Source: a virus. From it: a DNA stretch of 28,691 nucleotides. Below, one piece after another: positions 15,368-26,026 of this stretch. The DNA lies in the IMG/VR virus record IMGVR_UViG_3300008120_000220, positions 1 to 28,691 of that record; one strand, written 5' to 3'. Every line of letters starts with the position of its first letter. The stretch's first letter is position 1. The position numbers were made by a program, and so were the translations under genes. The notes under the pieces were generated by a model. That model ran no database searches, had not been told where the DNA came from, and saw nothing but the letters and a program-made list of their open reading frames with translations.

Positions 15368-15673
15368 TTATTGAGTTAATTGGCAATCACATATATCACA
15401 TGTTGCCATTATTTGATGAGCCATTAAATCTTGTTGTTCTTCTGTTAAACAGTTAATTGAATCATTAGTAACATTAATATCTGTACTAAAGTTATAACAT
15501 CTTAATACTTCTATTTTATCATTAAGTAATTTAAGTTTAATTAATTCTTTATCTGCACAACTATTACCTATGGAGTATAGTTTAGATACTTCTTTAGCCT
15601 TAGTTGCAGAACAACATAAGGCATTAGTTAATATTAAATTTAAATTAGACTCTGTCATAAGATTATCCAGCAA
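15368..15673 (-). CDS. Small cysteine-rich protein, function unknown
   Basis: This 101-residue (or 96-residue) protein is mostly helical, with eight cysteines at 20, 21, 39, 59, 75, 92, 95 and 97, ending CDICDCQLTQ. The terminal CxxCxC and the CC at 20-21 might bind metal or pair with the Cys-rich neighbours. Met1 (15673) overlaps the collagen-like gene by 11 nt; Met6 (15658) would start 4 nt after its stop, and no ribosome binding site decides between them. It is the last of three consecutive Cys-rich genes, which suggests they form one complex. Not recognised otherwise. Confidence 0.65.
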   Translation of the reverse strand: MLDNLMTESNLNLILTNALCCSATKAKEVSKLYSIGNSCADKELIKLKLLNDKIEVLRCYNFSTDINVTNDSINCLTEEQQDLMAHQIMATCDICDCQLTQ

Positions 15674-16163
15674 TCATACTTATATACAAGTAAGTATCGG
15701 AAGCAGAATCACCGTTACTATCTGTTACAGTACATTTCAGTAAACCAAAAATACCAGCATTACTAGTAGCTATAGCATCAAATGCTTGTGTATATATCCC
15801 TATATTAAATAATACATTATTTGCTGTAATAGGACTATCAAAAATAAACCATGGAGTTGCACCATCAAATCCCGAGTTTATATTGTCTGCCCATTCCCAT
15901 AAATAAGTATAAGGAGCTGTACCACCTGTAGTAGTAGTAAAGGCTCTAGGACCTCCTTCAGTTATTTCTATTGAAGAGATTTTTAAAGTTACACATGAAC
16001 ATGTCCCAGTAGGGCCTTGAGGACCAGTAGCTCCAGTAGCTCCAGCTGGTCCTGTTGCACCAGGTGCTCCAATAGGTATTGTTAATTCTTTGCAGTTACA
16101 CATACAAAATTTATTTAAAAGTTTACATATTAATAATATAAGGTTTTTTTTCATCATTTGCAA
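15663..16163 (-). CDS. Collagen-like protein with PKD/SprB-like domain
   Basis: This 166-residue protein starts with a hydrophobic, basic segment (KKNLILLICKLLNKF), then a C-x-C-x-C cluster (C20, C22, C24). About eight Gly-X-Y collagen triplets follow at 32-55, ending in a second C-x-C (C55, C57). The rest is a beta domain with TTTGGTAPYTYLWEWADN, the hallmark of PKD/SprB-like Ig folds common in Bacteroidota surface proteins, finishing in CTVTDSNGDSASDTYLYI. Collagen triplets in phage proteins form trimeric stalks, and flanking cysteines could lock the trimer. The start could be residue 1, 3 or 4 (all Met). It overlaps both neighbours by about 10 nt. A trimeric virion spike or adhesin is likely; a membrane-anchored form cannot be excluded. 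Confidence 0.75.
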   Translation of the reverse strand: MQMMKKNLILLICKLLNKFCMCNCKELTIPIGAPGATGPAGATGATGPQGPTGTCSCVTLKISSIEITEGGPRAFTTTTGGTAPYTYLWEWADNINSGFDGATPWFIFDSPITANNVLFNIGIYTQAFDAIATSNAGIFGLLKCTVTDSNGDSASDTYLYISMIAG

Positions 16164-18656: not shown

Positions 18657-19334
18657 TTATTCGTTAGTGTTATTAATCAAAGGATTAAATGATTGTGTTC
18701 TTTTACCCTCTATTCCTTCTAATGCAATGCTTACTGCGGTGTCTACTAATTCATTATGAATATGTTCTGATAATTCACAAGTAATATTTCCAGATAAACT
18801 CATTTTAACAGGTTGTCTTAAATATCGTAATTGATAATCTACAATTGTACAATTTGATATTAATTCAACTTTTCCTGCTATCATAAGTCTAAGAACTTTT
18901 TCATTATTAGGTTTAGCAAAAGGATCTTTTAAAGATTTAGATGCTTCTAAATGAGTAATTGGTATTACTTCAACTCTTTGTGTTATTGGAGTACCACAAT
19001 TAGTACAAGTTATTCCAGCTCTCTCCTGTATAGTAAACCAATGGTTAGTTGGTAAATTTACAAATCTAGCATTAGCATCTATATTGTTTACTGAGTAAGC
19101 TAAAGGAGTTAGTATTGTATTTTCTGTAATATTCTTTAAATCCTCTGTACGCTTCTGAGTTTCTTCAAAAGATTGTCTTTTAGCATTATTAAAACCATAC
19201 CTTTGTTTAATTAACCTATCCTGAGCATTATTCAATATCAAATCAATCTCTTCAGGTAAGAAGTTAGGATAGTTTAAGGCATCCATTTTATCTAACCTAA
19301 ATTTAAATTCAATATGAAATTGAGATATTGTCAT
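18657..19334 (-). CDS. Putative head-tail connector/ring protein
   Basis: This 225-residue protein resembles the adaptor-type proteins that extend the portal in short-tailed phages. The N-terminus is helical, with FLPEEIDLILNNAQDRLIKQ at 26-44 and a charged EETQKRTEDLKN helix. The middle is beta-rich and carries a CTNC pair at 110-113, and the C-terminus has a helix following LSEHIHNELVDTAVSIALEG. The single CxxC plus C162 and C186 could bind metal or just be structural. It is coupled to the preceding gene by a 1-nt overlap. Related helix/beta/helix layouts occur in the 226-aa and 233-aa proteins further along the window, suggesting that several ring proteins stack on the portal as in ΦcrAss001. 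Exact ring identity is not assigned. Confidence 0.6.
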   Translation of the reverse strand: MTISQFHIEFKFRLDKMDALNYPNFLPEEIDLILNNAQDRLIKQRYGFNNAKRQSFEETQKRTEDLKNITENTILTPLAYSVNNIDANARFVNLPTNHWFTIQERAGITCTNCGTPITQRVEVIPITHLEASKSLKDPFAKPNNEKVLRLMIAGKVELISNCTIVDYQLRYLRQPVKMSLSGNITCELSEHIHNELVDTAVSIALEGIEGKRTQSFNPLINNTNE

Positions 19335-22826: not shown

Positions 22827-22828
22827 GC

Positions 22829-22841
22829 TTGCCTTATTAGT
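22829..22841 (-). promoter_or_regulatory. ACTAATAAGGCAA element before the scaffold gene
   Basis: On the minus strand, ACTAATAAGGCAA sits 2 nt before the scaffold ATG. A nearly identical ACTAATAAAGGCAA lies upstream of the 265-aa gene at 20144-20157. Both follow a hairpin that closes the preceding gene. Here the AAGG is 5 nt from the start codon and could act as a weak Shine-Dalgarno; at the other site it is too distant for that. Function is unproven. Confidence 0.3.
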
Positions 22842-22886
22842 AATATACTATAAATATAACTGTTTTGGTTATTGTCTCCTAATTTT

Positions 22887-22912
22887 AAAAGTTAGACAGT
22901 TAACTAACTTTT
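22887..22912 (-). terminator. A/T-rich hairpin after the ferritin gene
   Basis: On the minus strand AAAAGTTAG and CTAACTTTT form a perfect 9-bp stem around an 8-nt loop, starting 11 nt beyond the ferritin stop codon. The 3' arm ends in four T residues. The stem has only two G-C pairs, so it is a weak terminator at best. It may only attenuate read-through into the scaffold and capsid genes, or act as an mRNA 3'-end stabiliser. Confidence 0.45.
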
Positions 22913-22922
22913 TATAGCTTTA

Positions 22923-23447
22923 TTATCCTTTTAATTCTGTATCAAATAATCTCATTGCTATCTTATCTTCACCAAAAGCTTCTAATTTATCTATATAAGT
23001 TTGAACTTTTCCTAGTTCTTCTTGTTGTTCAGTTAAGAATTTCATAGCTAATTGATATAATAAATGATTACCATATTTCATAGCATGTGAAGCTAATTCA
23101 TTACATTGTTGAGTAACCATTATTTCATGAGCAAATGATTGTCTAATAATATCAGGTAATCCAGCAAATACTTGAGGAGGTTCTTTTAAAGCCGGTAACT
23201 TTGGAGTTACTCCCATATCTAAAAGAAAATCTTTAGCCCATTGAGCATGTTTCATCTCATCTTCAGAATCCTTTAACCAGGCTGAAGCTGCTCCAGTATA
23301 TCCATGATCATTTAACCATAAAGACATTATTTGATATAGCCGACTAGAATATTCTTCTTGCTCAATTCTATAATTTAATATATCAATGCATTCTTTAGAT
23401 GCAAAAGGGTTTTTAACCCCACCAAGTTTTACTTTAGGTACTTCCAT
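22923..23447 (-). CDS. Non-haem ferritin (FtnA-like)
   Basis: This 174-residue protein resembles bacterial ferritins along its whole length. Ferritins assemble 24-mer cages that oxidise Fe(II) and store it as mineral. Against the remembered E. coli FtnA sequence the ferroxidase ligands are all in place: E31 (EQEEYSS), E64 and H67 (SEDEMKHAQ), E108 (FAHEIMVTQ), Q141 and E144 (TEQQEELGK). No haem-binding methionine typical of bacterioferritin is obvious, and the protein ends in a FtnA-like FDTELKG. The start overlaps the portal stop by 1 nt, so it is embedded in the packaging/head operon. A hairpin follows the stop. Whether it acts in the host cytoplasm (iron or oxidative stress control) or is virion-associated cannot be told from sequence. 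The family call is very confident. Confidence 0.92.
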   Translation of the reverse strand: MEVPKVKLGGVKNPFASKECIDILNYRIEQEEYSSRLYQIMSLWLNDHGYTGAASAWLKDSEDEMKHAQWAKDFLLDMGVTPKLPALKEPPQVFAGLPDIIRQSFAHEIMVTQQCNELASHAMKYGNHLLYQLAMKFLTEQQEELGKVQTYIDKLEAFGEDKIAMRLFDTELKG

Positions 23448-26026
23448 TATTTTTTAGGTTTATTAGATTTAGCTTTAGCTGCGGCCAACTTCATACGTTC
23501 TATCTCCATCTTTTTATTCATCATATCTTTATCTAAAGCAGCTTTCTTATTAGCTAATTCAATTTGATTCTTATTTTGAATTTTAATTTGTTCAAGTTTC
23601 TTATTTTCTAGATCTTGTTTCATTCTAATCTCTTTATCTTTTTGAGCTAACTGAGCATCATGTTTAGATTTATCATGTCCAATCTTAGATTGTTCTAAGA
23701 ATGCTTTAGATGATAATTCTTGTTGTTTTAATGCATTAGCCGCAATCTCTGAAGGATCAGGGATACCATTATCATTTTGATCTAAATCTTGTTGTCTAGC
23801 AAATACACCAATCTCAGCAATTTGAATTTTTGTAGAATTATTAGCTTCAGCAATATATCTTTCTTGATCAAGTTTTAAATGATCTAATTCAACTTGTTCA
23901 GCATGCATTTGTTGTTGAATAGCTTCAACTTTCATTTCATGCTCTTGTTGAGCTTTAGAACTATCAGCTTGACGTTTATAGAACTCCTCTTCTTTACGTT
24001 GTAACAATCTTACAATATCTCTAGGAGAATCATTCATTAATGTTTCAACTATTGAAGATAAATCTATTTTTTCAGACTGTAATGCTACTTGAACTAATTG
24101 GTCTAACTTAGCTTTTAATTCAAGATCTTTAGTATTGTTAGTTACAAATACATTAAACTCTGAATTCTCAAATTCATTCTCTTCTAGGTTAAGCATCTCA
24201 ATACCCATATCATCTAAGACATACTGAGCAACTAATCCTTTCTTATAACATATCTTAGCAACTTCAATCATTGCTGTATAGGCTCTACGTTTAACTTCAG
24301 CATGAGCTTCATACAAGTATTCTGTAATTAATGAAGACTGATTTACACTACGTTCTACATTACCAACTAGTTCAGAGTTATTAATAGCACCTAAACGTTG
24401 AGGTGTAACACCAGATACAAAGGCTACTTGTTGTTTAATGTAATCCAACATATTGATATATTGTTGAATAGATTGACTAAGACTTAAATCAATTGCTTGA
24501 AACTGATTAAACTTGTTGGCCAATTGTCCTGTAGCAGCACCTTTCTTACCTTCCTCAAATGAGTTAATGAATGCAATATTCATCTCTTTAAGATAGTACA
24601 TCCACTTATCAATATCGATACCTTGACTTTGAGGTATCTGAGCTAAGTCCATGATGAACTTCTTACCTTGATCTGAAGCAAATGCTATCTCTAATCTATA
24701 AGATATAATATCATATAAATATTGATAAGGTTTTAATCTGTCAATTAAACTAACTGATTGAGAGTTAGTAGCTTCATATATAAATCCTGTATAACCTAAT
24801 CTGCAGTAGTATGGATTATCCAATCTACGTCTTTGGTTAGGTTTAGGTTTAATGTCTGTAAATATATCTAATCCAATTTTAACACCTTCCCAAGCTTCAT
24901 TGATCCAATACCATTCTACTTTAGCATCAGGGAAAGCTTCTTTAAATATTCTAGTATTAAAGAATTCATCTACAATCTCTGTATTAACAGTTCCTTCTTC
25001 ATCAGTCCAAGTTAACTCACCAATCTTCTTCATTGATTTCCATTCAACTCTAGTAACTCTAATAGAATAGTTATTACTATTATTTCCATTATAAGCATTA
25101 GTTGGAGTAACTCCTGCAAAAGCATTTTGTCCATTAACTACATCAAACTGAGGTTCAAATCCACCTGCTGTATTAAAAGAACCAAAGGTCCCTCTAGTAT
25201 AATTTTCTAATTTCTCTATATCTGCTTTAGATAGAATATCACCATATTCATCTAAAATAGTATTGATGGCCAACATACGTTCTTCAACTACTGCTATAGC
25301 ATCATCAATAAAAGTAGTATCTCCATCTAGTATCACAGTTAAGTTAACTGGATTAACTCTACGCATAGCTACTTCATCATTCTCAATACCTACCCAATAA
25401 ATCTCTTCTCCAGCAATTAAAGCATCTTTCCATCCTTGAGAAAATAATAATCTAGTATTACATTTCTTCTTTAAAGACTTAAGAATCTTGTTAGCTTTAG
25501 ATTCAATTATATCCGACGGTGTATATTTTTCATGCTTGATAATTTCTTCCGGTGGAGGTGGTGGATTATTAGGATCTGCATTAGGATCAATTTGATAAGC
25601 CAAACCTTGTTGTAAAGCCTGGAAAATCTTTTCCTTAATTGCTGAAGTCTTTCTGTTAATATCATCTGGAGATTCAGATACCACAATATGATTATCTGGA
25701 CGTTTAGTTTCCTCACCAATAAGTAACTTAATTGGTTCAGAGATGATGTCATAATGTTGAAATCTAGCGGGAAATGTATTTGAAGTATTGATACCCAATG
25801 GATCACATATAGTTTCAATATCCTTATGGTTGACTTTACCATTATATAAATCGTAGTTAATTAACTTTCTAAGTCTATCAGAACGCAGATTACTACCATT
25901 AGTATATCTGTAATTTGAATAATAATTAATGCAAGACTTACCCCACTCTTTGTCTTTGCTAGACATAGGTAACTTTTGTTGTGGTAAATTCTGACCACCT
26001 AAATTGGCGTATATATCTTGACTCAT
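23447..26026 (-). CDS. Portal protein with long coiled-coil C-terminus
   Basis: This 859-residue protein is called the portal, the dodecameric ring at the capsid vertex through which DNA passes and on which TerL and the tail rings assemble. Support is its position directly after TerL with a 4-nt overlap, its size, and a mixed alpha/beta core of about 650 residues. A proline-rich stretch (PNNPPPPPEE) lies near residue 155. From about residue 670 to the end it is a highly charged Lys/Gln/Glu-rich helical region, likely coiled coil. That tail is interrupted at 749-760 by a loop matching the EF-hand pattern (D749, N751, N753, G754, D757, E760). The gene ends in a TAATG overlap with the ferritin gene. 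Portal identity is strong by synteny and general resemblance to phage portals. Confidence 0.85.
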   Translation of the reverse strand: MSQDIYANLGGQNLPQQKLPMSSKDKEWGKSCINYYSNYRYTNGSNLRSDRLRKLINYDLYNGKVNHKDIETICDPLGINTSNTFPARFQHYDIISEPIKLLIGEETKRPDNHIVVSESPDDINRKTSAIKEKIFQALQQGLAYQIDPNADPNNPPPPPEEIIKHEKYTPSDIIESKANKILKSLKKKCNTRLLFSQGWKDALIAGEEIYWVGIENDEVAMRRVNPVNLTVILDGDTTFIDDAIAVVEERMLAINTILDEYGDILSKADIEKLENYTRGTFGSFNTAGGFEPQFDVVNGQNAFAGVTPTNAYNGNNSNNYSIRVTRVEWKSMKKIGELTWTDEEGTVNTEIVDEFFNTRIFKEAFPDAKVEWYWINEAWEGVKIGLDIFTDIKPKPNQRRRLDNPYYCRLGYTGFIYEATNSQSVSLIDRLKPYQYLYDIISYRLEIAFASDQGKKFIMDLAQIPQSQGIDIDKWMYYLKEMNIAFINSFEEGKKGAATGQLANKFNQFQAIDLSLSQSIQQYINMLDYIKQQVAFVSGVTPQRLGAINNSELVGNVERSVNQSSLITEYLYEAHAEVKRRAYTAMIEVAKICYKKGLVAQYVLDDMGIEMLNLEENEFENSEFNVFVTNNTKDLELKAKLDQLVQVALQSEKIDLSSIVETLMNDSPRDIVRLLQRKEEEFYKRQADSSKAQQEHEMKVEAIQQQMHAEQVELDHLKLDQERYIAEANNSTKIQIAEIGVFARQQDLDQNDNGIPDPSEIAANALKQQELSSKAFLEQSKIGHDKSKHDAQLAQKDKEIRMKQDLENKKLEQIKIQNKNQIELANKKAALDKDMMNKKMEIERMKLAAAKAKSNKPKK

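Follow-up and report, generated by a model that had tools for sequence, protein, structure and literature searches.

Iron-oxidising proteins of the ferritin superfamily have been described in several groups of phages. Kavagutti et al. (2019) listed ferritin genes of freshwater phages among functions for ROS defence, and the part of that work considered here does not describe their genomic position, an exchange of genes within one slot, coupling to the portal gene or an N-terminal peptide (PMC6802176). The 'Gratiaviridae' encode Dps and Mn-catalase as oxidative-stress enzymes; these belong to other families, and portal coupling is not among the features described in the part of the source consulted (PMC8008677). 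In Lactobacillus phages, a Dps-like gene is found close to the replication genes (PMC6669764). Within the crAss-like phages, the putative DpsA (gp7) of crAss001 is a candidate member of the ferritin superfamily that weakly matches the Pfam family DUF5856. However, its gene resides in the tRNA region rather than next to the portal gene, and crAss001 has no FtnA; two papers on crAss001 make no mention in their main texts of Dps in the virion. A literature search, to which subscription papers and preprints were mostly inaccessible, returned no report of ferritin in Crassvirales, of a "phage-encoded ferritin" or of DUF5856, and nothing on the portal coupling, the interchange within one slot or the N-terminal peptides in common that are reported below. 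It is not the presence of ferritin or Dps in phages but their portal-coupled, interchangeable arrangement that appears to be new.

Here, we analysed a viral DNA of 28,691 nucleotides (IMG/VR record IMGVR_UViG_3300008120_000220, positions 1 to 28,691; hereafter the window), which carries a ferritin gene next to the portal gene (Table 1).

Table 1. Coordinates of the features discussed; positions refer to the window unless a contig is named.
Feature	Position	Strand	Basis
FtnA-type ferritin gene, 174 aa	22923..23447	(-)	PF00210 and PDB FtnA matches, AF2, VIA, dN/dS
N-terminal peptide MEVPKVKLGGV of ferritin	23415..23447	(-)	AF2, comparison with DUF5856
TAATG, overlap of portal stop and ferritin start	23445..23449	(-)	letters read directly
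Portal protein, 859 aa	23447..26026	(-)	phrog_6547, E=1.1e-147
Terminase large subunit (TerL), 697 aa	26023..28116	(-)	phrog_6681, E=9.3e-116
Intergenic region with hairpin and promoter-like motif	22827..22922	(-)	sequence, comparison with relatives
Putative scaffold protein, 376 aa	21696..22826	(-)	between portal and MCP
Major capsid protein (MCP), 483 aa	20212..21663	(-)	PF23898 Crass_capsid, E=8.2e-123
Tail ring protein 3/4	18657..19334	(-)	PF25710, E=1e-27
DUF5856 (PF19174), examples	L110:6361-6747; L166:6013-6375; L171:2947-3345		Pfam

The window encodes an FtnA-type ferritin

A preliminary description of the window had proposed a full-length, phage-encoded ferritin of the FtnA type. The open reading frame was found as described, extending from ATG to TAA on the minus strand, a detail absent from that description, and the assignment was borne out by family, structure, ligand and fold comparisons as well as by the presence of the gene in related phages. 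The product matches the Pfam family Ferritin (PF00210) with E=4.6e-22 and 78.9 bits relative to a cut-off of 24.5, covering positions 1–140 of the 142-position profile, and it also matches PHROG 16594, which carries no functional annotation. The nearest solved structures in a PDB sequence search are of E. coli-type FtnA (E=5.5e-24). The NCBIfam model for the FtnA equivalog (NF007638) scored 90.2 bits, below its cut-off of 178, indicating a relative rather than a member of this equivalog.

The alignment with FtnA is free of gaps and has a constant offset of 14, which places the six previously listed ferroxidase ligands E31, E64, H67, E108, Q141 and E144 at FtnA positions E17, E50, H53, E94, Q127 and E130, respectively. 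All six are invariant among 24 phage ferritins sharing 48–94% identity with the window copy. FtnA residues E49, E126 and E129 form the third-iron (C) site; in the same 24 sequences, the counterparts E140 and E143 of the latter two are invariant and the counterpart of E49, D63, is variable. The AlphaFold2 model, computed for a single chain with the phage alignment as input, reached a pLDDT of 90 and predicts helices at residues 18–47, 51–77, 97–124, 128–158 and 162–173, i.e. a four-helix bundle followed by a short C-terminal helix E. VIA-align superposed it on E. coli and Vibrio FtnA with Z 24–25 and rmsd 0.8–1.0 Å (for 1eum, Z 24.4 and rmsd 1.0 Å, residues 16–174 of the model on 2–160 of the chain). 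Gapless alignment and model superposition thus show that the ligands are superposable on those of FtnA.

As compared to FtnA of E. coli (1EUM) and V. cholerae (3QZ3), the protein has the same fold with short helix E, the same A/B-site ligands and the same core length, but identity is only ~32%, there are ~14 extra N-terminal residues, and the phage sequences form a clade of their own. With Dps, the 12-subunit mini-ferritin, it shares the proposed function, and the alternative occupant of its genomic slot, DUF5856, has the Dps motif and a Dps-like predicted fold; the window protein itself, however, is of FtnA type with five helices and FtnA ligands. Bacterioferritin was considered and rejected, since Q141 and E144 occupy the positions of the E127/H130-type ligands of that family and the best matches are to FtnA rather than Bfr. 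Comparison with the copy in contig L006 indicates purifying selection (dN 0.033, dS 0.71, dN/dS ~0.05). The window protein would oxidise and store iron, and it may assemble into a 24-mer.

Genomic position and probable transcription unit

The order of the crAss-type MCP, portal, TerL and tail ring protein genes identifies the carrier as a member of the Crassvirales with a gene order as in phi14:2, and every gene from TerL through the tail lies on the minus strand. The reported translational coupling to the portal gene was confirmed: the last A of the portal stop codon is the first A of the ferritin ATG, and this TAATG overlap is kept in many relatives. A portal-ferritin fusion via frameshifting at AAAAAATAATG was dropped as a candidate, the A-run being lost where other genes precede ferritin. 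On its other side, ferritin is indeed followed by a gene that had been called scaffold. This gene has no family match in Pfam or PHROG, and we refer to it as putative scaffold on account of its place before the MCP gene and its acidic, coiled-coil-like sequence.

The intergenic region behind ferritin contains a hairpin, AAAAGTTAG and CTAACTTTT separated by 8 nt, and then a promoter-like GTTATATT close to the scaffold ATG. A role of the hairpin as terminator was rejected, as overall folding there is no better than in shuffled sequences (z 0); the same hairpin is present in contig L084, a relative in which the slot is empty. Bacteroidota promoters differ from the sigma-70 consensus, and we therefore assessed the promoter-like motif by comparing conserved upstream sequence among relatives instead of searching for that consensus. 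In relatives, TTGCA-N18-TATATT is found 25–47 nt upstream of the scaffold gene and also precedes cargo-like and fibre-like genes; the window retains the GTTATATT part of this motif. Because this promoter-like motif separates the slot from the scaffold gene, ferritin is more likely to be transcribed with TerL and portal than with the capsid genes, and we infer that it is the last gene of a TerL-portal unit and expressed late. The proposed placement in a head operon holds in so far as ferritin lies within the crAss-like packaging and head block. It is not a fixed part of this block, as the content of the slot varies among relatives.

Further features were observed in the structural modules of these phages. 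A short gene at 15663–16163 of the window has collagen-like GATGPAGATGATGPQGPTG repeats. In contig L061 (cr131_1), an HNH endonuclease gene has seemingly inserted into the major head protein and split it (L061:14475-18063), and the matches to portal and TerL are interrupted in table-11 ORFs, perhaps reflecting introns or stop recoding.

Ferritins of related phages

With the window ferritin as query, 56 viral contigs were matched, and a ferritin beside the portal gene, for which the preliminary description had proposed a search in other Crassvirales, was found in many of them. Wherever neighbours are visible in group A (L002–L035 except L032), ferritin is flanked by the portal and scaffold genes. 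In L032, the tail muzzle protein gene (PHROG 28748) precedes ferritin and a large cargo-like gene follows it. Homologues of tail ring protein 3/4 are immediately upstream in group B (L036–L056), crAss-like phages further off whose MCPs share a PHROG with those of group A. Ferritins thus occupy three places within crAss-like structural modules. This module holds the ferritin in 23/23 long contigs with PF00210 hits, and no ferritin was detected outside of it in the 30 contigs searched. The group B ferritins have long, disordered-looking N-terminal tails rich in Lys/Arg with a recurring K-R-x-L-K-like motif, which by analogy to the tails of Dps could bind DNA.

In a tree with 29 Bacteroidota ferritins, 25 phage sequences grouped together with a UFBoot of 57, or 99 when a Bizionia ferritin (43% identity) was included. 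The phage ferritins fall apart from the sampled bacterial ones, in two bodies that are not tied to the slots: B-type ferritins occupy the portal-scaffold slot of L113, L118, L124 and L127, and L029 and L118, whose MCPs are 92% identical, carry ferritins of different bodies. Ferritin has thus moved between lineages as well as between positions. For phage isolates, searching 50,697 phage records with tblastn yielded no match to the window protein, only chance-level hits appearing at E 10, and a group B query gave five weak matches (25–28%) in unannotated records. Scanning genome contigs returned only the Bizionia ferritin (43%) and a 5.5-kb contig from a Tissierellales MAG (L135; JACIXZ010000027.1). 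The latter encodes a phage-type ferritin with 55% identity to the window protein and is probably mis-binned phage DNA.

DUF5856 proteins as alternative occupants of the slot

To survey the slot regardless of ferritin, relatives were gathered with MCP as query. Where portal and scaffold are both visible, 50/81 loci have ferritin in between and 31/81 have not, overlapping contigs being counted. Most of these 31 have in its place a DUF5856 protein of 126–138 aa, and L118, L124 and L127 carry ferritin and DUF5856 together. The slot is empty in about 11 loci, and some slots have HNH or GIY-YIG nuclease, GroES-like or YkuD/LysM genes, so that tolerance of this operon end for extra genes may also explain the location. 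Both proteins also occur behind the tail muzzle gene, a second slot that is taken by ferritin in L032 and by DUF5856 in L199. The relatives G008 and G009, at least 90 kb in length, have neither. A gene family encoding proteins of 177–919 aa (L014:6692-9451 and 35 relatives) occupies the portal-scaffold slot as well, mostly after ferritin; its length is highly variable, and the longest member has LysM and L,D-transpeptidase (YkuD) domains. Genes for GroES-like co-chaperonins were also seen near portal and scaffold genes, at L125:6466-6729 and in L127 and L128 among crAss-like phages, and at L166:3573-3821 in phage DSL-LC05.

Two His, one Asp and one Glu are invariant in DUF5856 (alignment A5, which includes T4-like RB49 and crAss001 gp7). 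The pattern H...H-x14-D-x3-E, characteristic of the Dps ferroxidase site, is present in 149/149 DUF5856 sequences as compared to 11/2980 shuffles, and the Dps of Bizionia displays it too. Among the structures compared, the predicted fold is closest to M. smegmatis Dps2 (VIA Z 12.8, rmsd 2.6 Å over 117 residues), although at such a Z helical bundles can give misleading matches. Foldseek hits of the model were at the top mainly Dps/ferritin-like with prob 1.0, but with E 0.03–0.1. Profile comparison detected no sequence homology between DUF5856 and ferritin, and hhalign gave a weak match to one Dps (prob 15.7%, E 0.0017). Considering pattern and predicted fold, DUF5856 is probably Dps-like.

A single scan confirmed 497 viral loci encoding DUF5856, and rI.-1 of T4-like RB49 is a relative. 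In phage DSL-LC05 (from Dishui Lake; stated host Gammaproteobacteria) and in a Manatee Spring podovirus with P22-like portal and coat, the gene comes directly after portal and its start overlaps the portal gene. Among viral loci of this P22-like podovirus type, the arrangement is present in all 70 testable cases, which are mutually related and hence amount to one event or a few. Of 79 crAss-like loci, 16 have DUF5856 just behind portal; elsewhere, it is found upstream of TerL, after muzzle (L199) or, in T4-like phages, in other places.

The N-terminal peptide

Residues 1–11 of the window ferritin are predicted to be disordered, mostly with pLDDT < 50. The sequence MEVPK-x-K is seen again on DUF5856 proteins that occupy this slot in relatives, and more generally the starts of portal-slot ferritins (MEVPKVKL, MAIPTFKP, MALDINK and others) resemble those of same-slot DUF5856 proteins. 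This sharing of N-termini, which concerns some lineages, amounts to a mean BLOSUM score of 14.8 versus 3.4 for 283 other genes, and none of 20,000 random draws was as high. In five sequences of the MALDINK type, differences in codons 2–7 are mostly synonymous, whereas those in codons 8–14 are only residue changes, affecting 4–7 of the 7 codons; this pattern suggests that the peptide is under constraint. Other genes in these genomes carry no convincing copy of the motif. Similarity of the peptides correlates weakly with portal identity (Spearman 0.27, P 0.017, the sequences being related); in view of this weak tracking of the portal lineage, recombination of the 5' end may have contributed. Some DUF5856 proteins (L166, L167) are without an N-terminal extension. 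The N-termini of ferritin and Dps point outwards, and the peptide could therefore dock the cage to a phage component.

Possible functions and their alternatives

Sequence and predicted fold, the conserved ligands, the purifying selection, the alternation of two proteins in one slot and the resemblance of their N-termini are best accounted for by a working FtnA-type ferritin, an iron-oxidising cage made with the late packaging genes that removes Fe2+, and we consider this explanation rather probable, if far from certain. Such a 24-subunit cage would oxidise Fe2+ at its intact di-iron site and store it as ferric mineral. Being produced as last gene of the TerL-portal unit, together with the late packaging genes, it would have been selected for clearing reactive Fe2+ during genome copying and packaging, so that phage DNA and the dying cell suffer less Fenton damage. 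In sister phages, the Dps-like DUF5856 may do the same job. The interchange of both proteins indicates that the chemistry matters rather than the shell, i.e. that the conserved trait would be iron oxidation in a cage and not one given shell. On the outside of either cage, the short disordered peptide may provide attachment to a phage component.

A serious rival, albeit in our judgement a somewhat unlikely one, is that ferritin is an accessory gene like others, which assists the host cell in dealing with iron or oxidative stress during infection and lies here only because the end of the TerL-portal unit tolerates insertions. It has to be taken seriously because the slot is open to other genes and in some loci has none; conservation of TTGCA-N18-TATATT after the slot fits with it, as do the ROS-defence reading of freshwater-phage ferritins (PMC6802176) and the Dps-like gene near replication genes in Lactobacillus phages (PMC6669764). 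However, ferritin-fold genes dominate the slot, the same portal coupling recurs in unrelated podoviruses, and in the 30 contigs searched the ferritins keep to the structural module. Alternatively, ferritin or DUF5856 cages might be present in or on the particle by means of the N-terminal peptide, protecting packaged DNA or handing the next cell a cage that binds iron. This attractive possibility, which extends the proposed Fe2+ removal rather than excluding it, we hold to be unlikely. It is consistent with the location of ferritin among structural genes at all three places and with constrained peptides common to two protein families. Moreover, the gene right after portal in crAss001 encodes the head fibre, whose residues 1–38 bind the capsid (PMC10172136), and the crAss001 virion offers cargo space. 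On the other hand, the peptide follows the portal lineage weakly, some DUF5856 proteins do without an extension, and the shared 5' end could in part be a remnant of recombination. Still more speculative and quite doubtful is a scenario in which unrelated phages repeatedly coupled an iron-oxidising cage to portal and virions carry the nanocage; here, the short interchangeable peptide of crAss-like phages would dock ferritin or the Dps-like cage on the assembling head.

Reuse of a catalytically dead ferritin shell as structural part, which the preliminary description had also listed, is very improbable. The position among head genes is all that speaks for it, whereas invariance of all ferroxidase ligands and replacement by a smaller Dps-like protein with Dps ligands would not be expected if only the shell were kept. 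Misassembly or host contamination, finally, has a negligible probability: contigs of four other metagenomes (L002, L003, L004 and L005) carry the identical ferritin with 100 bp on either side, which excludes misassembly, more than 50 related viral contigs exist, and phage ferritins group apart from the sampled bacterial ones. Neither of the two outcomes named in the preliminary description as fatal to the functional claim was observed.

Earlier phage ferritin and Dps genes were noted singly and interpreted as help for the host. Two differently built putative iron oxidisers in one late slot, along with portal coupling of one of them in unrelated phages, point to packaging-stage iron control as a selected trait and suggest that these viruses benefit from handling iron late in infection. 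For DUF5856, a family so far uncharacterised that is present in hundreds of viral contigs, a function as Dps-like ferroxidase is suggested. The arrangement predicts that iron may be found in the virion or at the packaging stage.
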